Source: Candidatus Atribacteria bacterium
Lineage (GTDB): Bacteria; Atribacterota; Phoenicimicrobiia; Phoenicimicrobiales; Phoenicimicrobiaceae
DNA: 42,940 nucleotides
Direction of reading: 5' to 3'
Assembly (NCBI GenBank): GCA_011056645.1
Contig: DSEL01000182.1
Coordinates: forward strand, 1-42,940
Positions 17,402-24,974 of the stretch are shown here, piece after piece. Position 1 is the first letter of the stretch. Each line of letters starts with the position of its first letter. A program made the translations under genes and the position numbers. Below the pieces are notes generated by a model that ran no database searches, was not told the origin of the DNA, and was given only the letters and a program-made list of their open reading frames with translations.

Positions 17402-18442
17402 ATGTCAAGCATTAAGAAAAATTTTGTTATTCTTTTCCTCACCTTGATTTTTAGTTTGATATTAGTATGGTTCGTGGGTGAAATGAATATTCCCATACAA
17501 GCTGCCGAAGAATTAAATGCTTATTCAATTTGGCCGGAGAATTGGGCACGACCGATGTTCGAAGAGTTTGAAAAAGCAACCGGGATACATGTAAATTTTA
17601 TTCGTTTTTCTTCCGGTGAGGCCCTGGCACGGGTGATAGCGGAAAAAAACAATCCACAAGTAGATGTTCTTTTCGGCGGACCCGTAGAAACTCACAGTGC
17701 AGGAATTAAAGAGGGGGTATTTGAAGCCTATAAACCACCTTCATATGATGTATTGGAAAGCAGATTTAAAGATGCTGATGGATTTTGGGTCGGCATTGCC
17801 GATGATCCGCTGGTATTTATGTCCAATGCGGAATTTCTGAAAGAAAAAAATCTTAATCCGCCTGCATCCTGGTATGATTTACTCGACCCTGCCTATAAAG
17901 AAATGATCCAAATGGCTGATGCCCGTACTTCAGGCACAGCTGTTACCAGGATATTTACTATTCTCCAAGTTTTTAATAGAGATGAAGAAAAAGCCTTTGA
18001 ATACATGAAAAAATTACGTGCTAATGTACAAGTGTATACAAAAAGTGGTGGAGGAGGAACAATTCCCGTAGGTTTAGGCCAGGCTGGAGCAGGGATATTC
18101 TTTATAGTCGATGCTTTGAAAACACAACAGGAAGGTTATGATGTTGTAGTATCTTTCCCCAAAGAAGGAATTGGTACATCTACCGAAGCAATTGCCTTGC
18201 TTAAAGGAGCTAAAAACCCCGAACTAGGCAAAAAGTTAATAGACTGGGCTTCCAGTCCGGCAATGCAAAATCTTTTTGCAAAATACCAGATTAACTTTAT
18301 TCCTGCCCATCCGGACGTAGAGATTGAACCAAGTCTGGCTGCGGTGATAAAAGACGCAAATATTTTCCCAATAGACAGTGTTTGGGCGGGGGAAAATCGT
18401 GAACGTATTGTAAATGAATGGGTAGAAAAAGTTTTGCCTTAA
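17402..18442 (+). CDS. Extracellular solute-binding protein, FbpA/AfuA type
   Basis: A 346-residue binding protein with an N-terminal signal segment (basic start, hydrophobic core about 9-27, cleavage near IQAAEE). The mature part is a family-1/FbpA-like fold: VDVLFGGPVETHSAG, SWYDLLDPAYKEMIQMADARTSGTA and a C-terminal WASSPAMQNLF are typical of proteins annotated for Fe(III), thiamine, aminoethylphosphonate or hexose phosphate. I do not see the Tyr-Tyr pair that binds iron in FbpA, so iron is not assured; AfuA-like sugar phosphates are an alternative. It heads an operon with permease, ATPase and an unknown secreted protein. Confidence 0.85.
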   Translation: MSSIKKNFVILFLTLIFSLILVWFVGEMNIPIQAAEELNAYSIWPENWARPMFEEFEKATGIHVNFIRFSSGEALARVIAEKNNPQVDVLFGGPVETHSAGIKEGVFEAYKPPSYDVLESRFKDADGFWVGIADDPLVFMSNAEFLKEKNLNPPASWYDLLDPAYKEMIQMADARTSGTAVTRIFTILQVFNRDEEKAFEYMKKLRANVQVYTKSGGGGTIPVGLGQAGAGIFFIVDALKTQQEGYDVVVSFPKEGIGTSTEAIALLKGAKNPELGKKLIDWASSPAMQNLFAKYQINFIPAHPDVEIEPSLAAVIKDANIFPIDSVWAGENRERIVNEWVEKVLP

Positions 18443-18489
18443 CCGATAGCTACTATTAAGTAAGAAATTTATTGAAAGAAAGAGAAAAA

Positions 18490-20199
18490 ATGCCCGCTTT
18501 TTTAAATTTATTTAAGAAAAAAATATCTACTAATTTGCCAAAAGATCCGGCAATTTTACTAAGCATCATGGTAATTTGGTTCTTTTTATTATTATTCATT
18601 ATTTTCCCTTTATCAAAAATAATTATATTAACTTTTGAAAAAGGCGGGCATTTTACTTTATCTAACCTCCTGGAAATCCTGAATAAACGGAATCATATAC
18701 AAGCATTTTGGAATAGCCTTCTTCTGGCTACCCTGGTTGGTTTGTCAGGGACGATTCTTGGTTTTTTCTTTGCTTTTACTTCGGTTAGAGCTAATCTTTC
18801 CAAGGGCTGGTCAAAATTTTTAGACGGCACCATCATACTGCCTCTTATATCTCCTCCCTTCACTACAGCAATTGCCATGATATTTTCCTTTGGGCGGAGA
18901 GGACTTATCACCTATAATCTATTAGGAATAAAAACATTTAATGTTTATGGTTTACATAGTGTACTGTTTGCCGAAACCATTACCTTTTTTCCCATTGCTT
19001 ATCTTACTTTAAAAGCTGTTCTGTCTGGTATTGACCCTACGGTAGAAGATATGGCATTTAGTCTGGGAAGTTCCCGGGGAAGGGTGTTTAGAACTATTAC
19101 CCTACCGCTTGCTATCCCGGGATTAGCAAATTCCTTTCTTTTGCTATTTGCTGCCTCTTTGGCCGATTTTGCCACACCTTTAATTCTGGCAGGAAATAAA
19201 TTTCCGGTACTCCCTACCGAAGCCTTTCTTCAGATTACCGGGTTATTTGATATAAGAGGAGGAGCAGTTTTATCTTTTATTCTTCTGGTCCCCGCTTTTT
19301 TAGTATTTATTCTTCAGAGGTATTGGGTAAGCCGAAAATATTATGTGACTATTACCGGAAAAGCCGGAGCACAGACTCAAATTAAAAGTGTTACTTCCAT
19401 AACCGGAAGAATTTTTCTTGCCGTATGCATCCTTGTTTCCCTTTTAATTCTATATTTCTATATTCTTTTATTCTATGCTTCTATTATAAAGGCATTTGGT
19501 GCCAATTATCAGGTTACTTTACAACATTATACGGTGGTTTTCACCGAGGGATTAAAGGCCATAAAAGATACACTTATTATTGCCACTACGGGAATGTTGC
19601 TGGGGGGGTTTTATGGTGTTATTGTGGGATATTTGATCTCTAAAAAGACCTTTATTTCCCGATCTGCTATGGAGATTATTTCAATGGTCAATTACTCTCT
19701 GCCCGGAACGATAGTAGGAATTGCGTATTTAATTGCTTTTAATAATCCTCCGATTATGATAACCGGAACGGCAATTATTATCATAGCCTGTTATGTCTTT
19801 CGATATGGTGCTACGGGAATTCGGACTACAGTAGCTATTCTTCAGCAAATCGATCCAAGCATCGAAGAAGCATCCTCAAGCTTAGGAGCTAATGCTGCCA
19901 CCACTTTTAAACGTATCACCATACCACTTATCCTTCCCGGTTTATTTAGCGGTTTAGGGATAGTATTTATTCGTTCAATGACAGCAATCAGCGCTACCAT
20001 CTTTTTAATTTCTATAAACTGGACTCTTATTACCGTTCGTATTCTCGAGAAGATGACCGAACTGGAATTAGGCGTAGCTGCTGCGTTTTCCACTCTGGTA
20101 GTCGTAATTGTTTTTATAGTGATTATATTTATTAATTTGTTTCTCAGGCTATTTCGCGGCCCAGGAGCAATCGATATGTCTAACATTTTAGGAGGATAA
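18490..20199 (+). CDS. ABC transporter permease, fused FbpB/AfuB type
   Basis: This inner-membrane permease has two copies of the binding-protein-dependent transport domain in one chain, as in FbpB. Each half has an EAA-type loop that docks the ATPase: [20 protein letters not shown] in the first and [19 protein letters not shown] in the second. About twelve hydrophobic helices are visible across 569 residues. I start at ATG 18490 because an upstream in-frame TTG (18472) lacks a ribosome site. The ATPase gene starts two bases after its stop, and GGAGG sits in its last codons. Confidence 0.88.
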
Positions 20200-20200
20200 T

Positions 20201-21295
20201 ATGGAAGCAATCGGAATCCATTTAAGCAATATTCATAAAACCTTTATACATCGAATAAAAGGCAAAGTAAAAGCCGTTGATAATGTTAATTTAGACATCG
20301 AACATGCTAAGCTGGTAACCTTATTAGGCCCCTCTGGCTGCGGTAAGACCACTACCTTAAGAATGGTTGCCGGCTTTGAACAACCAGATCAGGGAACTAT
20401 TTTTCTTGGAGAAGAAAATGTGACCAATTTATTGGCAAATAAACGAAATATTGGGTTCGTTTTTCAGAATTACGCTCTTTTTCCCCATCTTTCGATTTAT
20501 GAAAATGTTGCTTATGGTCTAAAAGTAAAAGGGGTTTCTCCACAAGAAGAAAAACAGAGAGTTGATGAAATTTTAGCTATGGTGGGCTTAACCGGGTATG
20601 AAGCGCAGTTTCCTCACCAGATTTCTGGCGGAGAACAGCAGCGGGTAGCCCTTGCCCGTGCCATTGTGATCAGACCAAAAGTTCTTCTCCTGGATGAGCC
20701 TTTATCAAACTTAGATGCAAAATTAAGAGTTCATACTCGGAGCGAAATAAGACGTCTACAGCAATCTCTCCACATGACTTCTATTTATGTTACTCATGAT
20801 CAGGAGGAAGCAATGGCTATATCTGACCACATAGCCATTATGAATAAAGGGAAGATAATTCAGGTAGGAACAGCAGAAGATTTATACTTTCAACCTAATT
20901 CAGAATTTGTTGCGAAGTTTATTGGTAGAATTAATACACTTCCTGCAGAAGTACAAGAAGTGGAAAATGGCTTTATAATGGTAAAAATATTTAATCATGC
21001 TTACAAAATTGCTGCCGTTTCAGAGGGAATTAAACCCCAACAAAAAATAAATGTTTTTATCAGACCAGAATTTGTACAACTTTCTAAAAAGGTAGAAGGG
21101 AAAGAATTAAAAGGAATTGTTACCGAAAAAGTCTTTTTGGGAGAGAAAGTCGAATTTGCCATAGATGTTTATGGACATAGCTTAAATATTACCTCTTACA
21201 ATGCTGTCGAATATGCAAAATATGTATTAAATCAAGAGGTAGAGGTACACCTGGCTGAAAAGGAGCTGAAAATTTTTAAAGAGAAGGGAGATTAA
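20201..21295 (+). CDS. ABC transporter ATP-binding protein, FbpC/PotA type
   Basis: This cytoplasmic ATPase powers the importer encoded upstream. Walker A is GPSGCGKTT (about residues 45-53), the Q-loop is [11 protein letters not shown], the ABC signature is [13 protein letters not shown], Walker B is [14 protein letters not shown], and the switch His lies in [12 protein letters not shown]-terminal TOBE-like regulatory domain follows from about residue 245. The length of 364 residues suits the FbpC/PotA/UgpC group. It starts two bases after the permease stop and ends two bases before the next gene, so all four genes form one transcript. Confidence 0.9.
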
Positions 21296-21899: not shown

Positions 21900-23828
21900 T
21901 TATTTTATACCAAGACGTTGCTCGGTGGCTTGTAAAATCATTTTTAGGGTTTCACCGTAGGATTTCCCGGCAATCTCGGCCATCTTAACCAGGTGACCAT
22001 CCCAGCACCAACCGGGGTTAGGATTGACTTCAAGGAGCTTCGGGGCGCCATTAGCATCAATTCTCCAATCGAATCGGCAGTAATCTTTACATTCTAACCT
22101 CTCGGATAGTTTCAAGCAGCACTCGATAATGAATTTTTCTACATCTTCCAGAAGCTCAGCAGCAGCAGATTTTATATTCCAATAGGGTGATTCCGGGAGC
22201 CATTTAGACTCATAACCGCAGATCTGCGGCAAATTTTCCGGCAATAATGAATAATCTGCCATAATGATAGGCAGGACAGTATAGGGTTCGGGAGGATTTC
22301 CTATGATTCCCACGCTAAGGTCTTTTCCGGTAAGAAGTTCCTCAACAAGAATGGGCTTATCATAACCAAATTTTTCCCTGATCTCCGAAATAGCATTTAC
22401 TAATTCTTCAAAACTGTTGGCCACGCTGTTTTGGGTAATCCCAAAACTAGAATCCCCGAAGTTTGGCTTTACGATTACCGGAAAACTAAAGGGCAATTCA
22501 AAAGCAGTATCTTCGGGCTTAATAAAGAAAGCTTCCGGTACCGGAATTTCCATTTCCCGTGCAATACCACGCACTAATGACTTATCATAACAGTAAGCAA
22601 GGCATTGTGGTCCCGAGCCGGTGTATGCTATACCGAGCATTTCCAGCAAAGAGGGTATATGCAGTTCTTTTTGTGCATCATTGTAGTAGCCTTCATCACA
22701 CAGGTTAAAGGCAAAATTAATTTTCTCTTTCACTTTTATCAGATCTTGTATTAAAGTATCGTGATTACTCAGATAAGTAAAATTATAATTTTTCAGCTCC
22801 TTTAGCCCTGATTTTAATTGATCTATAGTATAAAAATCATCATCATCAAAGATGGTAGAGGGTTTTAATGGATCTGCTTTTTGTGGATCTCCTAAAATAA
22901 CTACCACATTTTTTAACTCTTTTCTCAGTTTCTTTTTGATGGGTGTCCATTCTTTTTTAGTTACGGCGCTAACAATGATACATCTTTCCATCATGCCCAA
23001 ATCTTGATTTCGTTTGGAATCAGGAGAGAATTGACCATGAAAGGCGATATCACTGAAACCAGCTGTCTCCAAAAGACGATTTAAACTTTCTTTAGAATAT
23101 AGCCTTTCAGCATAGAATTGGTCTGTTATCATCCCTTTTTCTACGTGATTAATAATCTCTCTGGATATGAGACGCTGCTTATCAAGAGAAAGGGAGCGTT
23201 CTCTGCAAACAAAATGCTTTTTATCCATCCACTCCCAAGATCTGGCTTGAAAGTGTTTCTTTAGGTATTCGCCGTCGGTAATCTCAATAAGAAGTTTGCC
23301 CCAGGGCTTTAAAACTCTAAATATTTCCTTTAATACTCTCAAGTCATCCTGAATAGTCTCAAAATAGCCGAAGCTGTTACCCAATATAGTTACAGCATCA
23401 AAAGTATCGGGTGGGGAGGGAATTTTCCGGGCATCACCCTCTCTAAACCTGACATTTAAATCTTCTTTTCTTGCGCGAGCCTTAGCCTTTTGGATCAGAT
23501 AATGAGAGCGATCCAATCCTTCGATATTTTTAAAGTTTCTCCTGGCTAATTCAAGGGAATGTCTGCCTTGTCCGCAACACAAGTCAAGAATTTTATCTTC
23601 CAGCGAGAGTTTTAGAATATCTAAAAATTGAGTAATTTCACCTGCGGTAATGCTCAGGTCGTCTACCACATCGCCATCGGTTTTTAAATAAAGATAATTA
23701 AAGATTCGACTCCACCAATCCGGGCGAACGTGTTCTTCAAGATCAGGAACAGGACCTAAAAATACTTTTCGATCTTTACCGTTTTTCCTTCGCTGGGGAG
23801 GTTTGTCCGAAGTAGTTTTTTGATTCAT
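21900..23828 (-). CDS. Fusion of SAM methyltransferase and D-Ala-D-Ala-ligase-like ATP-grasp
   Basis: The 642-residue protein joins two enzymes. Residues 60-290 are a class I methyltransferase: motif I is LDLCCGQGRH (81-90), with GLDRSHYLIQ (motif II) and GDARKIP (131-137). Residues 305-640 resemble D-Ala-D-Ala ligase: AFNLCDEGYY, AYTGSGPQC, KPNFGDSSFGI (454-464) and the metal-binding FDWRID...LLEVNPNPGW (587-607, with Asp587, Glu600, Asn602). The first 35 residues are basic and look disordered. The substrate is unknown; peptide ligation plus methylation of a small amino acid or peptide is plausible. It is monocistronic, with its own promoter. Confidence 0.85.
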   Translation of the reverse strand: MNQKTTSDKPPQRRKNGKDRKVFLGPVPDLEEHVRPDWWSRIFNYLYLKTDGDVVDDLSITAGEITQFLDILKLSLEDKILDLCCGQGRHSLELARRNFKNIEGLDRSHYLIQKAKARARKEDLNVRFREGDARKIPSPPDTFDAVTILGNSFGYFETIQDDLRVLKEIFRVLKPWGKLLIEITDGEYLKKHFQARSWEWMDKKHFVCRERSLSLDKQRLISREIINHVEKGMITDQFYAERLYSKESLNRLLETAGFSDIAFHGQFSPDSKRNQDLGMMERCIIVSAVTKKEWTPIKKKLRKELKNVVVILGDPQKADPLKPSTIFDDDDFYTIDQLKSGLKELKNYNFTYLSNHDTLIQDLIKVKEKINFAFNLCDEGYYNDAQKELHIPSLLEMLGIAYTGSGPQCLAYCYDKSLVRGIAREMEIPVPEAFFIKPEDTAFELPFSFPVIVKPNFGDSSFGITQNSVANSFEELVNAISEIREKFGYDKPILVEELLTGKDLSVGIIGNPPEPYTVLPIIMADYSLLPENLPQICGYESKWLPESPYWNIKSAAAELLEDVEKFIIECCLKLSERLECKDYCRFDWRIDANGAPKLLEVNPNPGWCWDGHLVKMAEIAGKSYGETLKMILQATEQRLGIK

Positions 23829-23904
23829 AATTCTCCTCTATATTTTTCAAAAATCTTCACAGATTTCACTTTAATAAAAAAATCTTATTTTTTTATTCAT
23901 CCTT

Positions 23905-23933
23905 CTTATACCTAAAATATTCAGGAATGTCAA
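23905..23933 (-). promoter_or_regulatory. Promoter of the methyltransferase/ATP-grasp gene
   Basis: On the minus strand TTGACA (complement of 23928-23933) is followed after 17 bases by TATAAG (complement of 23905-23910). This predicts a leader of about 70 nt before the start at 23828. Confidence 0.75.
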
Positions 23934-24146
23934 TAGGATAAACTCTGTTTTAAAATAAAAAGAAGAATAATTTTGTGCTATGGCGATTACTTTCGCTTGG
24001 TGTAAGCGATACAAAAATTCTGCTAAAAATTTTTTAATTAGTAAAAAAAATGTTATTATAATAATAATTGAGGAAAAATTGATCACCCAAAATTATTTTA
24101 GATTATCAACTTTCTAAAAATTTTAAAAAGGCCTTCCAAGAGGACC
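23934..24146. other. Divergent spacer upstream of the PIG-L gene
   Basis: The region 23829-24146 separates divergent genes. Apart from the minus-strand promoter it holds a TATAAT at 24057-24062, a likely -10 for the plus-strand deacetylase with only a weak -35 (TTAATT). Nothing else is evident. Confidence 0.45.
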
Positions 24147-24974
24147 ATGATAAAACCATTCAAGAAAATTAAAAATAATCGTAAAACCCAAATTCTTATT
24201 GTAATAATAATTTTGTTTGTTTGCGTTTGCGCTGGAATTTTTTGGTATATTAGAACCAATCCAGTTATGCCGCAGTTGACCATTTATTTTTTAAATGATG
24301 TAAAGCTGCCGGAAAAAGACCAAAAAGTTCTGATTTTTTCACCTCATCCTGACGATGAAACACTTGCCTGTGGCGGTTATATTATCGAGTCAATAAAGAG
24401 AGGAGCCGAAGTCAAAATTGTATTGGTTACTGATGGCAATAGGCGCAGTTTAAAAGATCTACGATATTTAGAATTTGAAGCCGCTACCAATATTTTAGGG
24501 GTGTTGGTTAACAATTTAATTTTCTTAAATTATCCGGACGGTAATCTTATCCAAGAAGATCAGGTAGAATTAGAAAAAAATTTCCGAAGCCGGATAGATA
24601 GTTTTAACCCTGATATTGTACTCTATCCTCATCCTAACGACACCCATAAAGACCATGCCATCACCAGCAAAATTGTAGAGAAAATATTAGAACAATCTCC
24701 GAATAAGAAAATTGCTTATAAATACTTAGTTCATCACCCTCTGTATCCTTATCCCAAAAAATACACTCCTGATTTATACACCATGCCGCCAATTAGTTTA
24801 ATTACTTTTGATGGAGGATGGGAAAGATTGATGCTATCGGAAGAAACAAAGAACTTAAAGCAAAAAGTACTTAAATCTTATCAAAGTCAATTAAAGAATC
24901 CCTTACTAAAAAATTTACTCGAATCATTTATTCGGGAAAATGAACTCTTTGCTGTAGAAAGTTACCCCGATTAA
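24147..24974 (+). CDS. Membrane-anchored PIG-L/LmbE-family deacetylase
   Basis: This 275-residue protein has an N-terminal transmembrane helix (about 15-34) after a basic stretch, placing the catalytic domain outside the cytoplasm. The zinc site is shown by HPDDE (67-71) and the second motif HPNDTHKDH (162-170), hallmarks of de-N-acetylases such as LmbE, MshB, BshB and PIG-L. The substrate is probably an N-acetylated glycan or glycoside. AAGAGGA lies just before the ATG. A GNAT-family gene follows 92 bases later, but a shared pathway is not established. Confidence 0.85.
   Translation: MIKPFKKIKNNRKTQILIVIIILFVCVCAGIFWYIRTNPVMPQLTIYFLNDVKLPEKDQKVLIFSPHPDDETLACGGYIIESIKRGAEVKIVLVTDGNRRSLKDLRYLEFEAATNILGVLVNNLIFLNYPDGNLIQEDQVELEKNFRSRIDSFNPDIVLYPHPNDTHKDHAITSKIVEKILEQSPNKKIAYKYLVHHPLYPYPKKYTPDLYTMPPISLITFDGGWERLMLSEETKNLKQKVLKSYQSQLKNPLLKNLLESFIRENELFAVESYPD

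Follow-up and report, generated by a model that had tools for sequence, protein, structure and literature searches.

What might a single protein do that joins a SAM-dependent methyltransferase to a relative of D-Ala-D-Ala ligase (Ddl), and is such a protein real? We asked this of a minus-strand gene in a 42,940-nucleotide stretch of Candidatus Atribacteria contig DSEL01000182.1 (the whole stretch analysed, hereafter the window), which a preliminary description had read as one chain coupling a class I SAM methyltransferase to an ATP-grasp ligase with its metal ligands intact. Translation gives a reading frame of 642 codons that is free of internal stops (Table 1), and two Pfam domains lie on it over their curated cut-offs: Methyltransf_25 on residues 80-177 (E 2.7e-21) and Dala_Dala_lig_C on residues 446-632 (E 7e-22). 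AlphaFold2 modelled the full chain at a mean pLDDT of 85 and a pTM of 0.57, so the mutual placement of the two domains is not confident, and the predicted ligase half superposes on Ddl enzymes (VIA Z 28-29, rmsd 2.6-3.1, about 290-307 residues). Since Ddl matches filled the fold search of the full model throughout, we modelled the methyltransferase apart from the ligase (pLDDT 92, pTM 0.89); Pfam, fold and alignment together reveal the class I features, namely a Rossmann-like fold, the motif I DLCCGQG and an acidic D106 after beta-2. The two-domain reading is thereby confirmed by the single frame, the Pfam domains, the Ddl fold and the conserved cofactor sites, and the metal ligands D587, E600 and N602 are present as described.

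Table 1. Coordinates of the fusion gene and of its domains and motifs in the window.
Feature	Position	Strand	Evidence or remark
Methyltransferase/ATP-grasp fusion gene, 642 aa	21900..23828	-	ATG start; stop at 21902-21900
Class I SAM methyltransferase domain, residues ~24-292, with N-terminal cap segment W38 W39 Y47 T50 D51	22953..23759	-	Pfam, model, fold search, alignment
SAM motif I ILDLCCGQGRH, residues 80-90	23559..23591	-	D82, C85, G86, G88, R89 invariant in 107/107 fusion groups
GNSFGYF motif, residues 150-156	23361..23381	-	N151 kept in all fusions and in 7/7 stand-alone relatives; NmbA has Ser
Linker, residues 293-303	22920..22952	-	Length nearly constant across the fusion family; low confidence in model
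Ddl-fold ATP-grasp ligase domain, residues ~304-640	21909..22919	-	Pfam, fold search, hhalign
Acidic motif D(D/E)DD, residues 328-331, preceded by F327	22836..22847	-	Start of first helix; D330, D331 invariant in 107/107
NLCDEG motif, residues 375-380, at the Ddl LHG site	22689..22706	-	Alignment, hhalign
ATP-binding loop KPNFGDSSFG, residues 454-463	22440..22469	-	Alignment, hhalign
YE(S/A)KW, residues 539-543	22200..22214	-	Alignment, hhalign
RFDWR, residues 585-589; R585 and D587 (metal ligand) match Ddl, R589 extra	22062..22076	-	Alignment, hhalign
EVNPNPGWCWDGHLVK, residues 600-615; metal ligands E600 and N602, then altered acceptor loop	21984..22031	-	Alignment, hhalign

The fusion is a real gene: a chance or assembly join is excluded by matches that span both halves across the phylum, found in 31 of 50 Atribacterota genomes and in 17 of the 22 high-quality ones. 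A tblastn search of GTDB species genomes returned at least 528 relatives, of which we kept the best 80; all 80 are fusions with 63-94% identity that read through without a stop, and their halves keep register with nearly no indels. These 80 loci include Atribacterota, Aerophobetes, Planctomycetota, Desulfobacterota, Omnitrophota, Zixibacteria, Calditrichota, Chloroflexota, Spirochaetota, Thermotogota, Lokiarchaeota, Jordarchaeia, Methanophagales and Nitrososphaerota, among others. Many carriers are metagenome bins, and single odd placements (Nitrosotalea, Patescibacteria) may be contamination; a sequenced isolate, Desulfonema magnum 4be13, also carries the fusion. Its phylum holds a fusion spanning both halves in 7 of 247 genomes, and a sample of 195 Asgard genomes gave a match at E <= 1e-60 in 33, with both halves in one frame in 32. 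Altogether we count at least 135 fusion loci, which form 107 groups below 90% identity and come from over 20 bacterial and archaeal phyla, Asgard archaea among them. No full-length fusion turned up in collections of plasmids, phages and viruses, and single-domain relatives on rhizobial plasmids (30-32% identity), mostly in insertion-sequence-rich contexts, proved uninformative as leads.

The preliminary description had considered that the fusion might turn out to be a widespread, already characterised enzyme. Widespread it is, but no description of it emerged: none of the NCBIfam whole-protein cut-offs among the matches listed is passed, and we did not find the fusion in targeted searching of open full-text literature, an archaeal gene-fusion study included. 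It is a conserved family, apparently an undescribed one, whose two domains both come from known superfamilies. Its conservation is high: in the five genomes of other phyla that hold both proteins, the fusion is 66-74% identical and TypA 48-56%, and in four genomes of other phyla Ddl reaches 29-44% against 67-69% for the fusion. A protein of more than 20 phyla is thus better conserved between phyla than TypA or Ddl of the same genomes, yet carries no name or function that we could find. Its product, once identified, could prove to be a metabolite common to a wide range of sediment microbes, mostly uncultured and probably anaerobic, and to some Asgard archaea; the isolate D. magnum makes the question directly testable. 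The more distant Atribacterota families, at 63-66%, are no nearer than other phyla, and in the tree, which mixes phyla over a weak backbone, Atribacterota fall into two parts. Lateral spread, strong constraint, or both account for the identity between phyla. Among Asgard archaea inheritance looks vertical, because their loci share synteny.

The gene was also said to stand alone, away from cell-wall genes and behind a strong promoter of its own. The first part holds in the window, where no cell-wall gene adjoins it; the promoter is not supported, as the region gave a count of 9 against 8.0 +/- 2.7 in shuffled sequence and the promoter scan placed none of its minus-strand sites within 23829-24146. 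Upstream in the window lie an oriC-type block (dnaN, RecF-like ATPase, gyrB, gyrA) and amino-acid genes of the homoserine/aspartate family; next come an ABC transporter similar to those for 2-aminoethylphosphonate and an ORF of 180 aa that matches no Pfam family. This transporter (17402-21295) comprises a solute-binding protein, a fused double permease and an ATPase, which come closest to PhnS2/U2/T2, a putative 2-aminoethylphosphonate transporter, with every score below the curated cut-offs. Divergent from the fusion runs a PIG-L deacetylase, followed by a GNAT acetyltransferase and TypA. The adjoining deacetylase (BshB-like, 24147-24974) has an apparent N-terminal membrane segment; we rejected it as a functional partner, its adjacency to the fusion not being conserved elsewhere. 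For the genes nearest to the fusion at the first 77 loci, the two strands are about equally frequent (41/32 and 34/35), the 25 close same-strand neighbours that we scanned have unrelated functions, and no conserved neighbourhood was found beyond synteny inside single phyla, e.g., the Asgard archaea. The fusion gene is normally transcribed alone. An AstE/AspA-type amidase adjoins it in three distinct loci (L086, L095 and L054).

We then scored conservation over the 107 fusion groups, 16 stand-alone ligase relatives and seven stand-alone methyltransferase relatives. In the ligase half, the ATP and Mg residues K416, K454, S461, E496, K542, R585, D587, E600 and N602 are kept in 105-107 of the 107 fusion groups, which would imply that the Mg/ATP chemistry is retained. 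The likeness to Ddl (E. coli DdlB, PDB 1iow; P. aeruginosa DdlB, 8evy) extends over the fold, the ATP-grasp core, the three Mg ligands, R585 and the three lysines K416, K454 and K542, at about 24% identity and an hhalign probability of 99.9. The substrate-binding elements differ, and in the fusion a methyltransferase is added N-terminally. The omega-loop tyrosine of Ddl is replaced by Trp543 in 106 of 107 fusion groups, LHG by NLCDEG, and the S281/L282 acceptor-site turn by a WCWDGH loop, and R589 is extra. K454 and K542 correspond to K144 and K215 of E. coli DdlB, and W543 sits at Tyr216, in the established DdlB numbering. The Ddl motif GG-x-S-x-E-x-x-V-S, with the donor-binding Glu15, is not matched; hhalign leaves residues 303-346 of the fusion unaligned, and it is there that FD(D/E)DD lies, so that D330/D331, mapped by eye, are a possible stand-in for Glu15. 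W543 is present in all 16 stand-alone ligase relatives, and together with R589 and N375 it is common to these 16 and to at least 106 of the 107 fusion groups; the fused ligase therefore belongs to a subfamily apart from Ddl. Judged from these residues, it is a Ddl-like ATP-grasp branch, a predicted non-murein subfamily with a KW plus RxDxR signature. The WCWDGH loop is mostly restricted to the fusions and largely missing from the stand-alone relatives. The best score against curated NCBIfam Ddl models, 109.8 bits, falls short of the cut-off of 243.

In the methyltransferase half, the SAM residues D82, G86, G88 and D106 are essentially invariant over the 107 groups. Fold searches tie it with many small-molecule methyltransferases at Z 22-25, many of them N-methyltransferases (TylM1, DesVI, GSMT, GNMT), and C- and O-methyltransferases appear at similar Z; the acceptor atom is therefore not fixed. 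Glycine sarcosine N-methyltransferase (GSMT, PDB 5hij) and the sugar N,N-dimethyltransferase TylM1 (PDB 4oqd) share the class I fold (VIA Z 22-24), and GSMT is also a sequence match, but in the structure search its sequence likeness covers mainly the SAM-binding core, and the whole-protein NCBIfam score is 49 bits against a cut-off of 350. By analogy with the nearest solved relatives, N-methylation is the most likely reaction. A role in anti-phage defence was discarded, the PADLOC match being to the generic methyltransferase core of mads_2 alone. The seven stand-alone methyltransferases resemble the fusion at 36-41% identity, and several adjoin DUF885 proteins. Such a cassette, whole or partial, consists of a DUF885 protein, a protein of about 460 aa with a HSEWNLGSPGGW motif and no Pfam family, and a methyltransferase near that of the fusion (36-41%); it was seen at L158:6010-10394 and also at L156, L157, L170 and L171.

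What do the two halves make together? The reading that we favour, tentatively and somewhat short of an even call, is that the fusion is a self-contained bifunctional enzyme that would N-methylate a small amino compound and couple it through an amide to an amine. The N-terminal domain would move a methyl group from SAM, most likely onto the nitrogen of an amino acid or amine, and the C-terminal domain would use ATP and Mg to activate a carboxylate as its acyl phosphate before coupling it to an amine. The constancy of the fusion suggests a shared substrate or pathway, the same compound probably passing between the domains, and an amine-type acceptor for the ligase half is what we infer. That an amino acid or dipeptide is methylated and ligated in succession, as first proposed, is plausible. 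Given a monocistronic gene that occurs in bacteria and archaea alike, the product would probably be built from common metabolites by methylation and ligation alone. The invariance of both cofactor sites across 107 independent groups argues for this reading. Against obligate linkage stands one genome (G160) that keeps a stand-alone methyltransferase half, 50% identical, and gave no match to the ligase half at E <= 1e-60; the two steps therefore need not be obligately linked. With the low pTM given above, channelling of a substrate between the domains is a conjecture. The wider proposal, that this is a laterally spreading, self-sufficient enzyme of bacteria and archaea (Asgard included) that are mostly uncultured and probably anaerobic, making a methylated amide metabolite or cofactor-like compound new to any organism, is possible and we hold it with less confidence still.

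A more specific version names the amine: the ATP-grasp half would join agmatine, putrescine or some larger polyamine to an amino acid that the methyltransferase half methylates. We regard this as rather unlikely, though several genomic contexts point to it. Several of the closest stand-alone ligase relatives (32-36% identity) sit in operons of Thermodesulfobacteriota that also encode agmatinase, pyruvoyl-dependent arginine decarboxylase (PvlArgDC) and further ATP-grasp ligases; some of these operons include a deoxyhypusine-synthase-like gene. These ligases share W543, R589 and N375 with the fusion, but lack a fused methyltransferase, often occur as a tandem pair and mostly miss WCWDGH. Among the fusions themselves, the gene follows agmatinase and PvlArgDC on a Zixibacteria contig (L037), lies 4 bp before a RimK-like ligase, the same as in the polyamine-gene operons, at L059, and on some Asgard contigs has arginine decarboxylase and deoxyhypusine synthase within about 4-7 genes. 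However, these are only a handful of the 107 groups, the Asgard cases share ancestry, and stand-alone relatives of similar identity occur in unrelated contexts (L161, L163, L166, L167). PvlArgDC is not a required partner, since 49 of 50 Atribacterota genomes lack it, all 31 fusion carriers among them, and a polyamine partner as a rule in this phylum was accordingly rejected. We also dropped the E-64 pathway as a precedent for an ATP-grasp enzyme joining a polyamine, the polyamine step there being carried out by an adenylating synthetase (PMC12568646). The operons themselves, in which agmatinase and PvlArgDC accompany two tandem Ddl-like ligases (L154:5054-9612, also L160, L164 and L165), with a RimK-like ligase added in L154 and a deoxyhypusine-synthase-like protein in L160, look like an uncharacterised amino-acid/polyamine conjugation pathway.

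The substrate might instead be a macromolecule, a protein terminus or side chain or an RNA, to which the ligase would add an amino acid that the methyltransferase methylates. The identity between phyla, above that of TypA and Ddl, and the orphan position of the gene are consistent with this, as are small proteins read as SET-domain proteins that accompany the family: two form a tight run with the stand-alone methyltransferase of G160 (L153:6939-8642), and one has a neighbour of the fusion as its homologue (L210). We nevertheless consider a macromolecular substrate improbable, as lateral transfer accounts equally for the identity, the Atribacterota families being as distant from one another as from other phyla and split in the tree; moreover, enzymes acting on small molecules typically have these two folds, and Pfam and fold searches found no extra RNA- or protein-binding domain. 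The contig of L210 is an Asgard one, and there the homologous ORF comes next after the fusion.

A third alternative starts from NmbA of Chlorobaculum tepidum, which methylates the cysteine amine of bacillithiol (PMC12719100, PMC6282198). By sequence profile NmbA (PDB 9ri2) is the closest solved methyltransferase (E 1.3e-35, runner-up 4e-22) and the nearest characterised one, sharing the class I fold and the SFGYF motif, and the fusion might therefore make an N-methyl-cysteine low-molecular-weight thiol, like N-methyl-bacillithiol, in organisms without bacillithiol. In the source genome no BshA passes the cut-off (best 134.8 against 273.7 bits), which rejects the bacillithiol pathway itself and would call for a different thiol. 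We judge this quite improbable. NmbA is a single-domain protein of the BshABC pathway and is structurally tied with many other methyltransferases. Five conserved and possibly pocket-lining residues of the fusion (N151, R223, E224, D236, Y239) differ in the NmbA fragment compared, where N151 is Ser, E224 Lys, D236 Ser and Y239 Glu. All five are shared by closer stand-alone methyltransferases, these last four in all seven of them, and nothing points to cysteine as the substrate.

That the fusion is a D-Ala-D-Ala (or cell-wall depsipeptide) ligase carrying a methyltransferase is barely credible, for the Ddl fold, the catalytic core and weak matches to NCBIfam Ddl models are set against replaced Ddl substrate motifs, scores far under the cut-offs (110 vs 243 bits), a separate canonical Ddl in the genome and archaea that carry the fusion with no other family member. 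This Ddl lies on another contig (G000:C225, E 1e-78) and has a GG-S-E-EVS type motif, and in two archaeal genomes (Nitrososphaerales and Aigarchaeota bins) the fusion is the sole Dala_Dala_lig_C protein; a murein role is therefore very unlikely. The cell-wall variant offered in the preliminary description is not supported, in view of these archaeal genomes, and its caution that the gene may simply be the housekeeping ligase of a genome with no second Ddl does not apply, a full Ddl being present.

Further ligases and copies were seen in genomes that carry fusions. In D. magnum, about 20 kb from the fusion, a 721-aa protein (L115:1107-5759) combines a Ddl-like ATP-grasp with a weak M20-peptidase-like match and adjoins a gamma-glutamyltranspeptidase and an N-formylglutamate amidohydrolase. 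In one Asgard genome a ligase copy without a methyltransferase (48%) lies some 4 kb away from the fusion, and a Freyarchaeota genome (G051) carries two full-length fusions, at C32:339311-341221 and C12:143331-145235.
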